Assembly: GCA_947627985.1 (NCBI GenBank)
Contig: CANQYD010000024.1
Location: forward strand, 1 to 32,458
Direction of reading: 5' to 3'
DNA from: an uncultured Clostridia bacterium
GTDB taxonomy: Bacteria > Bacillota > Clostridia > Oscillospirales > Ruminococcaceae
Length of the DNA stretch: 32,458 bases
Part shown: positions 723-32,376 of the stretch, in pieces
Layout: every line of letters begins with the position of its first letter
Numbering within the stretch: position 1 is the stretch's first letter
Position numbers and translations under genes: made by a program
Notes under the pieces: generated by a model
What the model was told of the DNA's origin: nothing
The model's database searches: none
What the model saw: only the letters and a program-made list of their open reading frames with translations

Positions 723-802
723 AGCTCTTCCTCCCTATCGATTCGGTCGGCAAGCCATGCAATAGCCAAGATCGCAAAGATTATTCCTAAAAATCTCTTC
801 AT
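719..802 (-). CDS. 27-aa single-pass membrane peptide in Bce-like operon
   Basis: A 27-codon frame encodes MKRFLGIIFAILAI, then a short stretch ending in DRIDREEEL: a basic start, one hydrophobic helix (about residues 4-17) and an acidic tail. Its ATG overlaps the stop of the upstream permease gene by four bases, and its own TGA overlaps the start of the 157-aa gene by four bases. Two ATGA junctions in a row strongly suggest a real, translationally coupled gene rather than a chance frame. AGGGAAAG just upstream could act as ribosome binding site. The layout (short, cationic start, one helix) is that of small membrane proteins that modulate a transporter or kinase; which partner it has cannot be told from sequence. 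Confidence 0.65.
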   Translation of the reverse strand: MKRFLGIIFAILAIAWLADRIDREEEL

Positions 803-2862
803 GACTTTCCCTCCTTCGCGCCGCTGACTATCTTATAATAGGAGTTTGAAGTGATGCGGTAGACCAGGACGTAAAACGCCGCAAAGAGCGCAAAACTCAG
901 AACCGTCGCTATCATGAAGGCTGCGCGGCTGTTGAGATATAAAAGCCCCAAGAGCTTGTTGATGATGGGAAACGCGAAGGCGATATGCACCGCAGACATC
1001 GCAAGAGGAAGGAAGAATACCGTCAGAACCTGCGAATTTATGCTCTTTTTGATCTCGCGCTTGGTCATGCCGACCTTCTGCATGATTCCGAAGCGGGACT
1101 GATCTTCATAGCCCTCAGAGAGCTGTTTGTAGTAGATTATCAGAACCGTCGCGAGCAAAAAGACCGCAGAGAGCATTATCCCTATAAAGAACAGCCCGCC
1201 GTTTAAGGCATAGTCGTAATAGCGCTCAGCCTCGCGGGAGGTGATGTCCGCGACCTTGAACTGCACCGTTCTGTCCCGAAGGTTCTGATCTAAAAGAATA
1301 TCGGTGAGATCGTCGGTGAATTGCTGCTGCTCCTCGGGCGGAAGCCCGCAGTCGAAGATGTAATTCCACTGGAACTTCACCATCTGATCTCCGTTGTAGT
1401 CGGCAAGGCGGTCGAGCCCGTCGAGGGCGAAGGACATGTCGGGGACTATCAGGAAAATGGACGGGACGATGTCCACGGCTGATTCTCCGCTGACATTCAA
1501 GGCATTTATCTTTCTGATATCAAACGTCCTGCCCTCTTTAAAAGTCAGCGTCGGGAGGTCGTATTTTCCGTGGACGGCGTATAAAAGCGCCTCTCCGTCC
1601 GTCAGCTCCTCATGGGTTCCCATCATGCGGTTGTAGTCCTCAAGAGGGAGGATAAAGCATTCATACAGAGAATTTATATCGGTTGTCATGTCCATGGAAT
1701 GGGCGGTGTAATCGGTTTCCATCACGCCGTCAGACAGCAGTCCCGCGACATATGCACAGCGGTAGTCTATAAGATTTGTGACCTCTCCTCCGCGGGATTT
1801 TGTGAAATCAACCATCTCCGAACGCACGCCGTCGAGCAAAAGATCGGCTTCGGGTGTCATGTCATCCTGACTTAAGGAAAATGTGATATTTACCTCCCCG
1901 GGGTGGCGCTGCATTATCGACTTCTCCATGCCGAAATAAAGGCTTGTAGTAGATGATACCGTCACAAGGACCATCGTTGAGAGTATGCAAATCGAGGCAA
2001 GCCCCGCTCCGTTTCTCTTCATTCTGTATACCATCGACGAGACGGAGACAAAGTGGTTTGGTTTATAGTAAAACTTCTTGTTTTTTTGTAAAATTTTGCA
2101 GAATATGACCGAGCCGGATATCATCGTCAGATATGTCCCGCCGATGACTAAAAGCACCGCTATAAAGAACAGCGTCAAAGCCGCAAGGGGATTTTTTGTC
2201 GTTATCGCGATGAAATAGCCCGCTGCTAAAAATATCAACCCTAAGACGGCGTATAAAATATTTCCCTTGGGAGGCTTTTCTCCGACGTTTTCGCTTCTCA
2301 GAAGATGTATCGCGGTCGAAAACTGTATCTGCCGAAGTGCGTTGAGATAAATAAGGAAAAAGATCAATAAATATACCCAGACGGTTTTTGTCACCGACGG
2401 CAGGGATATCTTAAAACTGTAGGGAATTTCGGCGTGCATGATGTTCACAAGACCGAGTTCAAACAGTTTTGATAGCAAAATCCCGATCGCAAGACCGATG
2501 ATGAGGGAGCCGAGCGCGGTTATGACGGTCTCGCAAAGAAGCAGCAGCGCGAGATTTTTCTTCCCCATTCCGAGGATATTGTAAAGCCCGAATTCCTTTT
2601 TGCGCCTTCTAATCAGGAAAGAGTTGGTGTAGAATAAAAATATGCAGGAAAAAATACCCATCACCCACGCGCCGAGATACATCATGGACTGAATTATATC
2701 CCCGCCGCGAACGGAAGCCACGCTTTCGGCTTTTGAGAGGAAGCAGAGTATGTAAAACACCGTTATCATGCTGACGCAGGTCATTATGAACGGCAGATAC
2801 AGCCGCCCGTTTTTTCTCATGCCGTCGAGGGCAAGTTTGGGATAGAAGCCGGCTTTTTTCAT
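799..2862 (-). CDS. BceB-like ABC transporter permease
   Basis: This 687-aa permease belongs to the BceB family of peptide-antibiotic resistance and sensing transporters. About ten hydrophobic segments are visible: one at the N-terminus (about 24-42), three more pairs up to residue ~310, then a soluble region of roughly 200 residues (about 315-525) and a last cluster of three helices. The large extracellular domain between helices 7 and 8 is the family hallmark and is thought to recognise the drug or its lipid-bound complex. BceB is near 646 aa, so the length fits. The gene overlaps the ATPase gene upstream by four bases (ATGA) and a 27-aa gene downstream in the same way. The likely role is removal of cell-wall-active peptides from their target and signalling to the adjacent kinase. 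The ligand is unknown. Confidence 0.9.
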   Translation of the reverse strand: MKKAGFYPKLALDGMRKNGRLYLPFIMTCVSMITVFYILCFLSKAESVASVRGGDIIQSMMYLGAWVMGIFSCIFLFYTNSFLIRRRKKEFGLYNILGMGKKNLALLLLCETVITALGSLIIGLAIGILLSKLFELGLVNIMHAEIPYSFKISLPSVTKTVWVYLLIFFLIYLNALRQIQFSTAIHLLRSENVGEKPPKGNILYAVLGLIFLAAGYFIAITTKNPLAALTLFFIAVLLVIGGTYLTMISGSVIFCKILQKNKKFYYKPNHFVSVSSMVYRMKRNGAGLASICILSTMVLVTVSSTTSLYFGMEKSIMQRHPGEVNITFSLSQDDMTPEADLLLDGVRSEMVDFTKSRGGEVTNLIDYRCAYVAGLLSDGVMETDYTAHSMDMTTDINSLYECFILPLEDYNRMMGTHEELTDGEALLYAVHGKYDLPTLTFKEGRTFDIRKINALNVSGESAVDIVPSIFLIVPDMSFALDGLDRLADYNGDQMVKFQWNYIFDCGLPPEEQQQFTDDLTDILLDQNLRDRTVQFKVADITSREAERYYDYALNGGLFFIGIMLSAVFLLATVLIIYYKQLSEGYEDQSRFGIMQKVGMTKREIKKSINSQVLTVFFLPLAMSAVHIAFAFPIINKLLGLLYLNSRAAFMIATVLSFALFAAFYVLVYRITSNSYYKIVSGAKEGKS

Positions 2863-26071: not shown

Positions 26072-28327
26072 TTATGCCATAGCGGGGTTGGGCTTGTGCT
26101 CTTCGACGGCGTCGATGTTTGCCTCGCGCATTTTTGTGGTCTTGCGCTGCGCCATGACGAGCTCATAATATACGCCTTTTTTGCGCATCAGCTCCTCATG
26201 GGAGCCCGTCTCCACCATTCTTCCCTTGTCAAGGACGATGAGCTGATCGGCGTTTGAAAGCGTCGAGAGTCGGTGGGCTATCGCGATGGTCGTCCTGCCG
26301 CGGCAAAGTTCGGCAAGTCCTTCCTGAATCTGCCTCTCGGTCTCGGTATCAAGGGAGGCTGTGGCTTCGTCAAGGATAATGATCTTCGGATTGTGAAGAA
26401 TAGCCCTTGCGATGGCTACGCGCTGTCTTTCACCGCCGGAAAGGGTGTGCCCCTTGTTGCCGACGCGGGTGTTGTAGCCGTCGGGGAGTTTTGTGATAAA
26501 CTCGTGGCAGTGGGCGATCTTTGCCGCCTGAACGACCTCTTCAAAGGTCGCCTTGGGGTTCGCGTAGGTGATGTTTTCAAGCACCGTTCCCTCAAAGAGA
26601 TAGGTCTCCTGCAAGACGACGCCGACCTGCGATCTCAAGCTTTCCTGCGATATCTTTCTTATGTCCACGCCGTCGATCTTCACGGCTCCCTGAGTGACGT
26701 CGTAGAGCCGAAGGACGAGGTTTATCATGGTGGATTTTCCTGCGCCCGAATGACCGACGATTCCGTACATCTTCCCCTTTTCGAGGTTGACGGTGACGTC
26801 CTTTAAGACGGGATTATAGACCTTGTAGCCGAAGTAGACATGATCGAAGCTGATATCACCCTTGATGTCGAGGTCAATGCAGTCTTTGGCGTCACGTACA
26901 TCGGTATTTTCTTCCAAAATTTCAAAGACTTTAGAGGCGGAGACGGATACGTCCGCAAGCTGCCTCGGAAGCTGCATCAGCCAGCGAAGCGGGGTATAAA
27001 GCATCGCAACATAGCTTGTAAACTGGGTCAACTGACCGAGGGTGAATGTCCCGAACATCGGAAGCCGAGAGAGGATCATCATCGAGCCGAAGTAGAGGAC
27101 AAAGTAGTTTCCGATGGTGAGCAAAAAGTCGCAGGCGGGCCAGATCAGATACCAAACGACCTCGGCTTTGGAGGCTGCTTTTGCGGCGTTTTCGGAGGCT
27201 GTGCGGTACTTTTCGATCTCAAGCTCCTCGGTGCCGCAGGTCTTGACGACGCGTATGCCGTCGAGAGCGTCGTGCAGAAGTTTTGAGTGTGCGTTTGAGA
27301 ATCGCCAGCTCCTGCCGTAGTACATCTGGATGGTGTTATACGCCCTCTTGATGATGACGACGACGATGGGTATCGGCAAAATCGCCAAGAGCGAGAGCCG
27401 CCAGTCCATCGTGAACATGATTATCGCGACGATGACGAGAGAGAAAATCCTCACTATCGCGTTCTTGCCGTTGTCCGTCATGAAGCTCTGGAGCTTGTTG
27501 GCGTCGTTGGAGACGCGGTTGATGAGGTCTCCCGCGGTCTTTTTAGAGATGGAGTTCATCGACAGATCAAGCGTCTTGTTGAATACGTCCTGTCTTAAAT
27601 CCTGACCGAGGTTCAGGGAGACATAGAAGCTCGCCTTCATGTTAGCCCAGTTGAGGACGGTGTTTATGATGATTATCACAAACATCGACGCGCAGAGAAT
27701 CCCGAAGCCGAGCCATGCTTGGGCGTTCCATATCACCGGTTCCGAACCCTCGGGAAGCCAGACATAGTTATCGATCAAAAGCCTGTTTATCATCGGCGAG
27801 ACGACGTTTAAAAGCTCACCCAAGACGGTGCAGATGATCGCTATCGCAAAGACGCCTTTATAGGGCTTGAGTCTTGCAAAGATTTTTGAGAAGGTCTTGA
27901 CCTTTGAGGCGCAGTAGGGGCACTCGGTGAAGCTGTCGAGCGGAAGCCCGCATTTAGGGCACTTAGGTTCGTCGATGTCCGATTCCTCGACCAAAACCCC
28001 GGTGGTGAGGTAGTGGTTTAAAATCTTACATAATTCGGCGAACATTATGAAGCTGTCCTGAGTGAAGGCGCAGATGCATTTTTGCGAGCGGTCGGCTATC
28101 TTTCCGACCATCATAGAACAGCCTATCAGCTGTTCGCAGGCGTATTCCTCATATTCGTCAAAGGAGTATCTGTCCTTGATCTCGCCGTCGATATAGACCA
28201 AAAGTTCGCTTTTGGTGACCGCAAGAACGCCGTCGACCTTCTTTGCCTTGCCGTACAGGTTAAACGGCAGGGAAAATATGTATTCCGAGAGCTCATGACC
28301 CTTCGGCGCTTTTAAAAGGAGATTCAT
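26072..28327 (-). CDS. ABC exporter subunit with N-terminal PH-like region and zinc ribbon
   Basis: A 751-aa type IV ABC exporter half. Residues 1-110 are soluble and beta-rich and end in a helix, reminiscent of a bacterial PH domain; Cys123, Cys126, Cys136 and Cys139 form a zinc ribbon; six membrane helices span about 155-460; the ATPase domain follows. Walker A is GIVGHSGAGKST, the signature LSGGERQR, Walker B IIILDEATASLD with catalytic Glu, and the switch His is in IAIAHRLSTL, all canonical. Most exporters of this type begin directly with the membrane part at ~580 aa, so the N-terminal extension is unusual. It probably pairs with the other exporter subunit of the operon (28939-31494), which has the same order of parts. 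The substrate is unknown; a drug or peptide is possible. Confidence 0.9.
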   Translation of the reverse strand: MNLLLKAPKGHELSEYIFSLPFNLYGKAKKVDGVLAVTKSELLVYIDGEIKDRYSFDEYEEYACEQLIGCSMMVGKIADRSQKCICAFTQDSFIMFAELCKILNHYLTTGVLVEESDIDEPKCPKCGLPLDSFTECPYCASKVKTFSKIFARLKPYKGVFAIAIICTVLGELLNVVSPMINRLLIDNYVWLPEGSEPVIWNAQAWLGFGILCASMFVIIIINTVLNWANMKASFYVSLNLGQDLRQDVFNKTLDLSMNSISKKTAGDLINRVSNDANKLQSFMTDNGKNAIVRIFSLVIVAIIMFTMDWRLSLLAILPIPIVVVIIKRAYNTIQMYYGRSWRFSNAHSKLLHDALDGIRVVKTCGTEELEIEKYRTASENAAKAASKAEVVWYLIWPACDFLLTIGNYFVLYFGSMMILSRLPMFGTFTLGQLTQFTSYVAMLYTPLRWLMQLPRQLADVSVSASKVFEILEENTDVRDAKDCIDLDIKGDISFDHVYFGYKVYNPVLKDVTVNLEKGKMYGIVGHSGAGKSTMINLVLRLYDVTQGAVKIDGVDIRKISQESLRSQVGVVLQETYLFEGTVLENITYANPKATFEEVVQAAKIAHCHEFITKLPDGYNTRVGNKGHTLSGGERQRVAIARAILHNPKIIILDEATASLDTETERQIQEGLAELCRGRTTIAIAHRLSTLSNADQLIVLDKGRMVETGSHEELMRKKGVYYELVMAQRKTTKMREANIDAVEEHKPNPAMA

Positions 28328-28368: not shown

Positions 28369-28911
28369 TTATACGAATATCTCAAGAATGGCGAGGCTCT
28401 TCTTGTCGAGCTTTTCGATGTCGGGACAGAAGTATTTGTTGCCGTCGACGTCTACAGCGTAGAGAAGGCTCTCTGACAGCATACGGAAGTTTGAGTACCA
28501 GTCGCGTATGCAGATCGTTTTGCGACCGCTCGTCGTGTCGATATCGACGAAGATGAAGCCGCGGTTGTTGTCCTTGATGGAGTAGATTTTAGTGATCTCG
28601 GGCATGTAGTATTTATATTCGAGATACCCGTCGATCATCTCGTACTGATCCTTATCGAGCTCAGCCATGTCCTTGATGACCCCGAGCTCTACAAACTCGT
28701 TGTCCTTGTTGTCGTACGCCACGCTGATATAGGTGGTCTTGGAATAAAAGGGCACGAGCCTTGTCAGTCGCACGTTGAAATAGTCCTCTCCGCGGTACTT
28801 CAGGGAGATGAAGTTTCCCTCGTCGCGGTAGAATTTAAGCTCCTTGCAGTCAAGTATCTCAAGACGGTCTATTTCAAATTTTTCTTCGTTGAGTATATCT
28901 TCCTTATTCAA
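28369..28911 (-). CDS. DUF1854-like protein of ABC exporter operon
   Basis: A 180-aa soluble protein with no membrane segment. The pattern of the second half matches my knowledge of DUF1854: a YYMPEITKIYSI block, a strand pair ending in DIDTTSGRKTICIRDW, and the end SLLYAVDVDGNKYFCPDIEKLDKKS. In Proteobacteria DUF1854 genes are found beside similar exporters near cyanophycin genes; no cyanophycin gene is in this window. It starts with TTG, eight bases after a strong AGGAGG; no better start exists. It lies between the two exporter subunits with short gaps (27 and 41 bases), so it probably works with them, perhaps as a cytosolic partner of their N-terminal domains. Function unknown. Confidence 0.8.
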   Translation of the reverse strand: MNKEDILNEEKFEIDRLEILDCKELKFYRDEGNFISLKYRGEDYFNVRLTRLVPFYSKTTYISVAYDNKDNEFVELGVIKDMAELDKDQYEMIDGYLEYKYYMPEITKIYSIKDNNRGFIFVDIDTTSGRKTICIRDWYSNFRMLSESLLYAVDVDGNKYFCPDIEKLDKKSLAILEIFV

Positions 28912-28938: not shown

Positions 28939-31494
28939 TCAGTCCTCTTCGATGAATTTGAGGGCGTCGGCTTGCAGAACATACAGCTCGAAATATTTGC
29001 CCTCAAGAGCCATCAGCTCGTCGTGGGTGCCTATCTCTCTGAGCTCGCCGTTTTCGATGACGCAGAGCATGTCGGCGTCCCTTAAAGTAGAAAGGCGGTG
29101 GGCGATCGAGATTATGGTCCTGCCCTCTTTCAGACCGTCGATCGCGACCTGAATCTTGCGCTCGGTCTTTGTATCCATCGAAGCCGTAGCCTCATCAAGT
29201 ATCAGGATATTCGGGTCCTGAATGATAGCGCGCGCGATGGAAATCCTCTGGCGCTCGCCTCCCGAGAGGCTGTGCCCTCCCCTGCCTATCTTTGTGTTGT
29301 AGCCGTCGGGGAGTTTTGTGATGAATTCATGCGCGTTGGCGCTCTTTGCAGCCTCGATGACCTCTTCTATAGTCGCGTCGGGTCGGGCATACCTGATGTT
29401 GTCGGCGACGGTGCCCATGAAGAGATATGTCTCCTGCGAGACGATGCCGATATTTCTTCTCAGGTCCTTTGTGGGTATCTGCTTTATCGGCACGCCGTCG
29501 ATGGTTATCTCCCCGCCGGTGACGTCATAGAGCCGGGCGATGAGGTTGATGATGGTGGACTTTCCGGCTCCCGTCTTTCCGACGATTCCGAACATCTGCC
29601 CGCCCTCGACCTTGAAGCTGAGGTTCTTTATGATAGGTCTGCCGGCTTCATATTCAAAGCTGACATTCTTAAACTCGATGTCGCCCTTCATGTTCTCGAT
29701 ATGTACGGGGTTTTCCGGCTCGGCAACGGTGGGCTTCGCGTCAAGTATCTCAAACATTCTCGAAGCCGCGTCGATGCACCTTGCCCAGCGATCTCCTATC
29801 CACATGAAGAAGTCGATCGGTTCGTAGATCATGTCGGTGTAGCCCAAAAGCGCAGTGAGGGTGCCGTATCTGAACTGCCCCTTGATGACGAGGAAGCAGC
29901 CGAAGCAGAAAAGCGCCTTGGAGACGATGTTGTAAAAGCTCCACATGAAGGGCTGAGTGTGCAAAATCCTGTCGTTGATCCTTGTGTTGACCTGATATGC
30001 GTTCTCGTTCTTCTTTTTGTAGCGGGCGCGCTCTTTGTCTTCCTTTGCAAACGACTTGACGACCCTCTGACCGTTCATGACGTCGGACAAAACGGAGTTT
30101 AAGCTTCTCATCGCGACGTCGAGCTTGCGGTAAAGCTTTCTCTGCGAGCGGTAGAGGTAGTTGTCGGCGGCAAGCAGCATGGCGATTATCAGTATGATCG
30201 CTATGGAGAGCACCGGACTGAGCCAGAACATGACCGCGGTCACTCCGACGAGCTTGATGACGTTTGCGACGCCGTAGGGAACGATATCGACAAAGAAGTT
30301 GTAGACGTTCTGACTGTCCCGGTCAACTCTTGACATCAAAGAGCCCGTCTGCTTGGAGGTAAAGAACGCAAGCGAAAGGTTTGACATCGTGGAATAAATC
30401 CTCGTGCGGAGTTTGTGGGTGACGATCGGCACGACCTTTGCGGTGATGACGCCGGAGACGACTCCCGCTATTCTGCCGAGTAGGTTGACGATCACCATCA
30501 GCATGATCACAAACATTACCTGACCGTAGTATTTTCCTTCCGGCGCGATGACGTCGTCGTAGAGCATTTTTGAGCCGAACCACGGTGAGACGACCGCAAA
30601 GACGTTTGACATGATAATCGTCAGGAAAATCAGGCTGATCTCGACCTTAAAGTCCTTAAACATTCCGACAAGGCGGTCTAAGATCGAGCGGCGGTCAAGG
30701 CAACGAGGACACACCGGTCTGTTGGGGTCGGGATATGGCTGGTGGCAGATCGGGCAATTCAGCTCGACCGCGTCAAGAAGGCTGTCGTCGTTTTCGATGC
30801 CGCGGTGGATATTGTTTAACCTTTCGCAGAATTTTTCAAACTTCTCGGCATAGCCGATGGAAAGCCTCGCGACGACGATATTGGGTCGGTTCTTGTCATA
30901 GCTCGAGCCGAAGCCTCCCCTGTAGTGCCCGCCGTGACCCGGAATGTGATATATGCCGTCGTCGGGCTGAGGCGGAGGTGAGAAGTCCCCTCCTCCGTGG
31001 TTTGCATGGGAATATATTCCTCCCGTTATCGGCGGAATGCTGACCTTCGGCGGAGGATAGCTCTTCGGGGTCGGCATTTTGATCTCGCTCGGATCGGGCT
31101 CCGGCTCGCCGGGTATCTTTAATCCCAAGACAAGCCTTGCGGAGGTCTGATGGCGGTCGACATAAGCGGTCCTGATGTCGCTGATCTTGTACTCCTTAAA
31201 ATCCGTCACGTTGTAGCAGAGTATCTCGGGGATATAAAATCCCTTGACAAACGAGCGGACGATCGGTACTTCGCGCATCGACTCCTTGATGCGCTCTTCC
31301 TTCGGGATCGCCTTGTACTCCTCGTTTCCGTAGATTATGTAGAGATTTTCCTTATCGATCACGCAGTACACGTCGCAGTATCCGCCTTCGTCGTCGAGAT
31401 CGGCTTTTACGCAGTATAAAAGCCCGCCGACATCTACTCCACGCTCCTCCAAGCGGTCGGAAACGACCTTGGGAAGCGCGTCAAAATACTTCAT
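28939..31494 (-). CDS. ABC exporter subunit with PH-like region, His/Pro/Gly-rich insert and zinc ribbon
   Basis: An 851-aa ABC exporter half. The first ~230 residues are a soluble beta-rich region ending in a helix (EKFEKFCERLNNI), like a PH domain, interrupted at about 129-206 by a low-complexity insert rich in Pro, Gly and His. Cys247, Cys250, Cys262 and Cys265 form a zinc ribbon. Six membrane helices and a canonical ATPase domain follow: GIVGKTGAGKST, LSGGERQR, ILILDEATASMD, ISIAHRLSTL. Both subunits of this pair keep a full catalytic set, unlike many heterodimers with one dead site. I chose the ATG at 31494; another ATG four codons earlier touches the AAAGGAG ribosome site with no spacing. 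The gene lies downstream of a leader peptide and terminator, which suggests induction by attenuation. Confidence 0.9.
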   Translation of the reverse strand: MKYFDALPKVVSDRLEERGVDVGGLLYCVKADLDDEGGYCDVYCVIDKENLYIIYGNEEYKAIPKEERIKESMREVPIVRSFVKGFYIPEILCYNVTDFKEYKISDIRTAYVDRHQTSARLVLGLKIPGEPEPDPSEIKMPTPKSYPPPKVSIPPITGGIYSHANHGGGDFSPPPQPDDGIYHIPGHGGHYRGGFGSSYDKNRPNIVVARLSIGYAEKFEKFCERLNNIHRGIENDDSLLDAVELNCPICHQPYPDPNRPVCPRCLDRRSILDRLVGMFKDFKVEISLIFLTIIMSNVFAVVSPWFGSKMLYDDVIAPEGKYYGQVMFVIMLMVIVNLLGRIAGVVSGVITAKVVPIVTHKLRTRIYSTMSNLSLAFFTSKQTGSLMSRVDRDSQNVYNFFVDIVPYGVANVIKLVGVTAVMFWLSPVLSIAIILIIAMLLAADNYLYRSQRKLYRKLDVAMRSLNSVLSDVMNGQRVVKSFAKEDKERARYKKKNENAYQVNTRINDRILHTQPFMWSFYNIVSKALFCFGCFLVIKGQFRYGTLTALLGYTDMIYEPIDFFMWIGDRWARCIDAASRMFEILDAKPTVAEPENPVHIENMKGDIEFKNVSFEYEAGRPIIKNLSFKVEGGQMFGIVGKTGAGKSTIINLIARLYDVTGGEITIDGVPIKQIPTKDLRRNIGIVSQETYLFMGTVADNIRYARPDATIEEVIEAAKSANAHEFITKLPDGYNTKIGRGGHSLSGGERQRISIARAIIQDPNILILDEATASMDTKTERKIQVAIDGLKEGRTIISIAHRLSTLRDADMLCVIENGELREIGTHDELMALEGKYFELYVLQADALKFIEED

Positions 31495-31581
31495 CCTATT
31501 TAACATCTCCTTTCTTTTTCGGTTGGTTTCGGTTGAAAGGCTGGGATTTTTTTGATCACCTCAAATTAACTGATTAACTAT

Positions 31582-31610
31582 AAAAAACCGTCCGGTTTTC
31601 ACGCGGACGG
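31582..31610 (-). terminator. Intrinsic terminator/attenuator before the exporter operon
   Basis: Minus strand: CCGTCCG, 9-nt loop, CGGACGG, then six T. It starts three bases after the stop codon of the 29-codon leader frame and about 90 bases before the first exporter gene. Its 5' arm and loop (31604-31599) can instead pair with 31664-31659 inside the leader frame (six base pairs), and that same segment also takes part in a separate leader hairpin at 31649-31670. This gives mutually exclusive folds, as in attenuators. Confidence 0.85.
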
Positions 31611-31613
31611 ATT

Positions 31614-31703
31614 TTAACGGTATAAGCCGAAAAGGCAGGAACCGACATATGCCGATAAGCGTGATCGCATGATTTTTTCAGTGAGAACAAACTGCTTTTT
31701 CAC
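31614..31703 (-). CDS. 29-codon leader peptide upstream of ABC exporter operon
   Basis: A GTG start at 31703 has a full AAAGGAG ribosome site nine bases before it and opens a 29-codon frame starting MKKQFVLTEKIMRSR and ending SCLFGLYR, then TAA. It lies exactly between a consensus promoter and an intrinsic terminator, so promoter, ribosome site, frame and terminator form a complete unit. The exporter genes lie beyond the terminator. In B. subtilis the heterodimeric multidrug exporter BmrCD is controlled by such a leader peptide (BmrB): ribosomes slowed by an antibiotic prevent termination. By layout I infer the same here; the peptide sequence itself is not recognised. It could also be an exported peptide. 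Confidence 0.65.
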   Translation of the reverse strand: MKKQFVLTEKIMRSRLSAYVGSCLFGLYR

Positions 31704-31749
31704 TTTAAACGGCTCCTTTCTTTTTGTTTTCGATTTATAAAGCTTTAAC

Positions 31750-31778
31750 ATTATAGACCCAATCCGGGGATTTGTCAA
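31750..31778 (-). promoter_or_regulatory. Consensus promoter of the leader peptide and exporter operon
   Basis: TTGACA (31778-31773), exactly 17 bases, TATAAT (31755-31750) on the minus strand, a perfect housekeeping promoter. The predicted start is near 31743, giving a leader of about 240 bases before the first exporter gene. Such a strong promoter suits control after initiation. Confidence 0.92.
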
Positions 31779-31938: not shown

Positions 31939-32376
31939 TTATTTCTCTTCAAGAGCAGTGATCTTATCGACCCGGCGCTGATGTCTTCCGCCCTCAAATC
32001 CGGTGTCGAGAAAGACGTCTACAAGTTCGCACGCAAGTCCCGGTCCGACGACTCTTCCTCCCATGCAGAGGACATTTGCGTCGTTGTGAAGACGGGTGTA
32101 CTTTGCGGAAAAAGCGTCGGAGCAGCAGCAGGCTCTTATCCCTTTTACCTTGTTCGCCGAGATGGATATCCCGACCCCGGTGCCGCAAAGAAGTATGGCG
32201 CGCTCAAGCTTTCCCGAGACGACGTCCCGGCAGACCGCCTCAGCCATGTCGGGATAGTCGATCTTCTCGCCCTTCTGAATGCCGTAGTCCTTAAACTCGA
32301 TGTTTCTCTCCTTAAGATGCTCGCAGATCGCCTCTTTGAGCTCGATCGCGGCGTGGTCGTTTCCGATTCCTATCAT
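31939..32376 (-). CDS. rpiB: Ribose-5-phosphate isomerase B
   Basis: RpiB, 145 aa, interconverts ribose 5-phosphate and ribulose 5-phosphate in the pentose phosphate pathway. GNDHAAIELK is the N-terminal substrate motif, Cys64 in LLCGTGVGISISANK is the catalytic base position of the family, and RLHNDANVLCMGGR follows with conserved His and Arg; GGRHQRRVDKI near the C-terminus is typical. AAAGGAG lies eight bases before the ATG. The LacAB subunits of galactose 6-phosphate isomerase are related, but the single gene and the Cys favour RpiB. Confidence 0.95.
   Translation of the reverse strand: MIGIGNDHAAIELKEAICEHLKERNIEFKDYGIQKGEKIDYPDMAEAVCRDVVSGKLERAILLCGTGVGISISANKVKGIRACCCSDAFSAKYTRLHNDANVLCMGGRVVGPGLACELVDVFLDTGFEGGRHQRRVDKITALEEK

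Follow-up and report, generated by a model that had tools for sequence, protein, structure and literature searches.

The window, by which we mean the entire 32,458-nucleotide stretch of DNA analyzed, carries on its minus strand an operon in which a short leader frame and an intrinsic terminator precede genes for two ABC exporter half-transporters (ABC1 and ABC2), with the gene for a DUF1854 protein between them. The features of the locus are as follows.

31939-32376, minus strand: rpiB, upstream of the leader promoter
31933-31911, minus strand: terminator-like hairpin between rpiB and the leader promoter, from a sequence scan
31750..31778, minus strand: promoter TTGACA-17-TATAAT of the leader-exporter operon, a 12/12 consensus match with a 17-base spacer
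31713..31719, minus strand: leader Shine-Dalgarno sequence AAAGGAG (SD; part of segment 1)
31614..31703, minus strand: leader frame, with a GTG start at 31703 and 29 codons plus a stop ending at 31614
31659..31664, minus strand: segment A, TCACGC, putatively pairing with the 5' arm and loop of the terminator, and as far from the start codon as A is in relatives
31638..31644, minus strand: core of segment B, CGGTTCC, which pairs with GGAGCCG 31716-31710 (SD) in the minimum-energy fold and the duplex test
31588..31610, minus strand: intrinsic terminator hairpin, -13.6 kcal/mol, whose 5' arm and loop hold GCGTGA 31604-31599
From 31587, minus strand: T tract 3' of the terminator hairpin, TTTTTTAT
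31504..31513, minus strand: ABC1 ribosome site region, AAAGGAGATG
28939..31494, minus strand: ABC1, an ABC exporter half-transporter extended at its N terminus (PF00664 and PF00005)
28369..28911, minus strand: DUF1854 protein (PF08909, 111.3 bits)
26072..28327, minus strand: ABC2, second ABC exporter half-transporter (PF00664 and PF00005)

Every anatomical element named in the original prediction, from the promoter and AAAGGAG site through the 29-codon frame and terminator to the exporter genes, is present. The terminator starts 3 bases past the leader stop codon, outside the leader coding region, and was missed by a simple scan because the loop limit of that scan is 8 bases. No sigma-70-type promoter was found by a simple sequence scan of the minus strand between the terminator and ABC1, and exporter transcripts should therefore cross the terminator. 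Elsewhere in the window, a 687-codon open frame (799-2862, minus strand) has no NCBIfam match at E 0.001.

As judged by profile scores below the cut-offs, the exporter proteins and their DUF1854 partner resemble NCBIfam families associated with cyanophycin. Membership of ABC1 and ABC2 in NF052233 (cyanophycin metabolism-associated ABC transporter) was considered and rejected, given that their scores of 525.7 and 520.7 bits lie under the 880-bit cut-off; the DUF1854 protein scores 44.8 bits against NF052234, under a cut-off of 150. The locus had been likened to BmrB-BmrCD of Bacillus subtilis, and the likeness of the exporter appears to extend to its general type only. Among the best 60 of the 206 and 212 matches to solved sequences, the top ones for the exporter chains are P-glycoprotein-type chains and TM0288, and the name BmrC or BmrD is absent from these 60, some of which are named only “ABC transporter.” Our literature search, which covered few subscription papers, found no function in print for this exporter and no publication on DUF1854.

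Distribution of the leader among relatives

Leaders of this layout precede orthologous operons in the genus of the window and in Ruminococcus-type relatives, and 49 were curated. Both the frame and the terminator are kept in these relatives, which is the conservation that had been proposed as a check on the original prediction. ABC1 scores above the cut-off in 29 of the 31 genomes of the genus, and the full set of promoter, SD, frame, and terminator occurs at 25 of the 28 genus loci that have enough upstream sequence, a count that leaves out L003 because its contig ends 83 bases upstream. Three loci of the genus (L007, L009, and L014) have a consensus promoter 78 bases before ABC1 without leader or terminator, and these are natural leaderless variants. 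The ABC1 frames of L014 and of L012 are each broken by one in-frame TAG, reflecting decay or assembly error, and both were excluded from the ABC1 tree for this reason.

Another 24 of the curated leaders lie outside the genus, including those of R. albus (L070 and L087) and R. bicirculans (L053). In a sample of 394 genomes from the order, 63 have an ABC1 relative at E 1e-180. Thirty order loci were inspected, among which L092 and L093 carry the leader and L094-L099 are repeats of genus loci. Outside the clade that holds the leaders on the tree below, a leader of this layout was not recognized in L073-L077, L080, L100-L119, or L121, with only 198 bases available upstream in L112. One locus from another family of the same order (L120) has a 20-codon frame preceded by an SD and followed by terminator-like hairpins, about 210-147 bases before a distant ABC1, and is possibly a candidate leader of independent origin.

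On a tree of 81 ABC1 proteins built with a quick method, all 48 leader-labelled rows fall inside one clade of 53 rows (SH-aLRT 97), although long branches make some joins in this tree unsure. The other five rows of the clade are L003, whose upstream DNA is missing; L081, which carries the leader but stands outside the 49 curated; L064, for which no leader was found; and the leaderless L007 and L009. The simplest reading of this pattern is that the leader had a single origin and was lost a few times, being missing in at least two lineages (L007/L009/L014 and L064). For the statistical comparisons below, removal of the near-copies L013, L067, L087, L092, and L093 from the 49 leaves a non-redundant set of 44 leaders.

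Competing pairings within the leader RNA

Two competing pairings are supported by the comparison of leader sequences. The first joins the SD region to a segment later in the frame (SD:B). Against dinucleotide shuffles, this pairing reaches p<0.05 in 31 of the 44 leaders (mean z -2.5), and against codon shuffles it is significant in 32. It lies above p 0.05 in 13 of 44, the clearest misses being L015, L021, L025, L065, and L066 (p 0.20-0.47). Its mean energy is -16.8 kcal/mol in leaders versus -10.3 in 160 long SD-preceded open frames, a control set taken from the fetched loci and the window and not curated as genes. In the window, the helix formed by GGAGCCG 31716-31710 with CGGTTCC 31644-31638 has a duplex p of 0.020 versus shuffles, and in some other leaders (for example L082, L057, and L053) the start codon itself lies within the helix.

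We consider partner swaps to be better evidence for the pairings than the pair table, which derives from predicted duplexes and is not independent. When the SD was fixed, the cognate B segment outperformed foreign ones in every one of the 30 clusters (mean better-foreign fraction 0.11), and when the frame was fixed, the cognate SD was better in 26 of 30 (0.16). These results support a long-range SD:B helix that is kept in relatives and that, in our best model, would act as an anti-antiterminator.

The second pairing joins segment A to the 5' arm of the terminator (A:T5). In the swap test, cognate partners were superior to foreign ones in 27/30 and 26/30 clusters, a result to which base composition common to a genome may contribute. 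Significance is reached in 12 of the 44 leaders with dinucleotide shuffles and in 9 with codon shuffles. Segment A ends within -20..+6 bases of the start of B in 33 of the 44 leaders, where 14.7 are expected, and falls outside this range in 11. Where A lies beside B (33 leaders), its first base is 24-100 bases from the beginning of the start codon, and in 31 of these leaders the distance is 34-77. In Ruminococcus-type leaders (L053, L056, L057, and L082), a frame stretch resembling TCAGATGTC stands opposite GACCTCTGA in the terminator.

In the window, the segment at 31659-31664 was originally predicted to pair either with 31599-31604 in the terminator 5' arm or within a local leader hairpin (31670-31649). 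The complementarity to the terminator is exact and relatives share its offset, but the window duplex does not reach significance by itself (p 0.39 for the best duplex, which includes part of the TCACGC:GCGTGA match), and foreign partners are better in 36-40% of cases. Support for the exclusivity of antiterminator and terminator comes from the swap and position results across the family, versus the p of 0.39 for the window pairing alone. The local hairpin fared worse: the most stable fold of the 22-mer is another hairpin, of 3 bp and -2.5 kcal/mol, and the corresponding span is better than shuffles at p 0.05 in none of the 49 leaders. Ribosome-mediated attenuation as such is well supported by comparison, with SD:B rather than the local hairpin as the competing structure.

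Because SD:B and A:T5 cross or overlap, they are mutually exclusive except as a pseudoknot. Their competition was modelled by partition-function folding of transcripts that end before the terminator 3' arm, a calculation that describes equilibrium and not kinetics. When the start site is covered as by a ribosome, predicted A:T5 pairing rises by an average of 7.5 bp, compared to 2.4 bp after codon shuffling (30 clusters, Wilcoxon 1.4e-6), and the gain exceeds 2 bp in 27 of 30 clusters. With the 44-leader set, the mean gain is 6.7 bp for real leaders versus 2.6 for shuffled ones, and a gain above 2 bp is predicted for 36 of 44 real leaders versus 28 of 44 by the mean of their shuffles. The switch of the window is modest, with A:T5 predicted to go from 5.8 to 9.4 bp upon covering (5.7 to 7.6 for shuffled sequences). 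In several leaders, such as L025, L058, L061, and L086, A:T5 is predicted to be well formed even without a ribosome.

Leader frame and proposed mechanism

The promoter matches the consensus at 12/12 positions in 32 of the 44 non-redundant leaders and at 11/12 in 11 more; the promoter of L056, truncated by the end of its contig, scores 9. Across the curated set, leader frames are 23-43 codons long, and in the L008 group they span 36-43 codons with conserved start and stop regions. With one representative taken per cluster, frame 0 lacks stops over the first 23 codons in all 30 (which were selected so); frame +1 is open over this span in none and frame +2 in 7. A comparison of 15 pairs of relatives, which are not independent and some of whose alignments are loose, gave 42 synonymous versus 211 non-synonymous changes, where the neutral expectation is 19-25% synonymous. 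These counts suggest that the frame is kept open while its amino acid changes accumulate at close to the rate expected under neutrality, such that the peptide is hardly conserved. Given a frame that is retained while its residues are not, ribosome position is the most likely signal, as in vmlR.

The peptide bears most directly on an alternative in which the nascent chain and a bound drug together would stall the ribosome at a defined codon, after which the same RNA switch would operate. Leader translation is the usual sensor for such drugs, drug-dependent ribosome stalling by a leader peptide being the ErmCL type, and the short peptide motifs IRMC and SRFLE are common to some subgroups. Against this reading stands the near-neutral amino acid change, and the motifs coincide with pairing segments A and B, for which reason we rejected a peptide motif as the conserved element. 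Peptide-specific arrest therefore seems rather improbable. The DNA of the motifs occurs at 12 places in the genus, of which nine are ABC1 leaders and three (L122, L126, and L132) are without the leader layout by eye.

We consider it likely that the leader is a ribosome-mediated transcription attenuator in which SD:B serves as the anti-antiterminator and which is opened by a ribosome held near the start. The RNA can be divided into four segments, with the leader SD as segment 1, A and B in the frame as segment 2, and the 5' and 3' arms of the terminator as segments 3 and 4. For the ribosome's role and the order of events, we infer the following. The full-consensus promoter should yield leader RNA constantly. 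In a leader free of ribosomes, SD:B would form and exclude pairing of A with segment 3, such that 3:4 forms and transcription stops. During normal translation, the ribosome would sweep across A and B, again permitting 3:4 to form and resulting in termination. If instead a ribosome is arrested on the start codon or within approximately the first 4-8 codons, the SD would be masked and A left free to pair with segment 3 before segment 4 is transcribed, allowing polymerase to read into ABC1-DUF1854-ABC2. A start-arrested ribosome covers to about +16 to +18 according to PMC12121999, and A, which starts farther on, should therefore stay free.

Since the SD closes after B is transcribed, mainly the first ribosome would be read. 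With an anti-antiterminator made from the leader's own ribosome-binding helix, the RNA would accordingly read the departure of that ribosome from the start region. Our confidence is about evenly balanced on the fuller proposal that this is a peptide-independent sensor that detects when the first co-transcriptional ribosome has cleared the start, that has kept its pairings and frame while the peptide drifts almost freely across Ruminococcus and its neighbors, and that gates a DUF1854-linked ABC exporter. If ribosome position is the signal, the first candidate inducers are inhibitors that arrest at or near start codons. By analogy with the vmlR and toiL systems described below, compounds of the pleuromutilin, lincosamide, streptogramin A, or tetracycline type would be the first candidates. 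Ribosome occupancy would presumably be the signal, an antibiotic the inducer, and a toxic compound the material exported.

Three other explanations appear considerably less probable. A terminator with alternative pairings would by itself also permit a riboswitch, T-box, or protein-binding attenuator in which the frame is incidental. We find this very unlikely, because the window has no Rfam match at the gathering threshold (the one hit obtained was a chance lncRNA at E 0.62), little sequence is common to all leaders, and the frame stays open behind a strong SD. An amino acid starvation attenuator with regulatory codons, in the style of trpL or hisL, is slightly more doubtful still. The trp-type attenuators of Escherichia coli share the 1:2, 2:3, and 3:4 logic, and Asn is 3-fold enriched in the first 11 residues of the leader peptides (0.118 vs 0.040) and Arg 1.35-fold overall, but no regulatory run of a single codon kept across the curated leaders was found and the downstream genes encode exporters rather than biosynthetic enzymes. 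Least probable of all is that the short peptide is an exported cargo or signal with the terminator merely setting the ratio of peptide to exporter message, a reading that fits a short peptide gene placed behind a strong promoter and beside an exporter but conflicts with the unconserved amino acid sequence, the covering of the SD by its own message, the lack of a peptidase family among the exporter's Pfam matches, and the intact ABC1 frames of the leaderless orthologs L007 and L009.

If the attenuator opened by a held ribosome is correct, it would represent a switch that spans a lineage of common gut bacteria of the Ruminococcus type and that probably responds to inhibitors. A drug or competitor product that opens the switch would then point to the substrate of the exporter. 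The 30 divergent leader clusters, together with the leaderless strains, offer a natural test set for deciding between pairings and frame on one side and the peptide on the other.

Comparison with known attenuators

Judged by sequence comparison, the leader is a real and conserved attenuator that is related in kind to known attenuators. Our literature search, which covered few subscription papers, found no earlier description of this Ruminococcus-type leader. Among the closest parallels is the vmlR leader of B. subtilis, which according to PMC9226507 comprises a short upstream frame, an anti-antiterminator, an antiterminator, and a terminator, together with an SD-sequestering hairpin and a pause site. 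Drugs that arrest ribosomes at the start break its first helix, and two of three natural peptide variants tested there worked like wild type. The anti-antiterminator/antiterminator/terminator logic is the same in both systems, as is a helix that competes with the antiterminator and can be covered by a start-codon ribosome, a role we propose for SD:B. In contrast, the vmlR frame consists of 3 codons inside the helix compared to the 23-43 codons found here, its target is an ABC-F factor rather than an exporter, and its SD precedes the helix within a single-stranded region (PMC9226507), whereas here the SD itself would be one arm.

In bmrB-bmrCD of B. subtilis, a leader frame and terminator likewise govern a two-gene ABC exporter, and the response to drugs targeting the 50S subunit requires leader translation (PMC4191407). 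The terminator of that system lies inside bmrB, whereas those described here are mostly 3' of the stop codon, and a DUF1854 gene stands between the ABC genes here, unlike in bmrCD. The same paper gives the bmrB anti-antiterminator as predicted from one sequence, with its function unclear.

The ABC-leaders of Naville and Gautheret are attenuators predicted upstream of ABC transporter genes, among which is a multidrug exporter of lactobacilli (PMC2965389). They come from other lineages and are described as possible aptamers; in the available text of that report, the five examples are presented without mention of a leader frame, and the word Ruminococcus is absent. The toiL-topAI system of E. coli has a short frame that senses several classes of inhibitor, some via start-codon arrest (PMC12121999). 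It differs in unmasking the ribosome site of the downstream gene and in working with Rho, and the text of that report available to us does not mention an intrinsic terminator switch.

The SD pairing test was also applied to six amino acid leaders of E. coli, and significance was reached in none of these (p 0.15-0.98). In trpL of E. coli K-12 (L136), the SD region AGGGTATC matches GATACCC about 80 bases past the start over 7 bp, which is not significant versus shuffles. The SD of trpL is reportedly masked.
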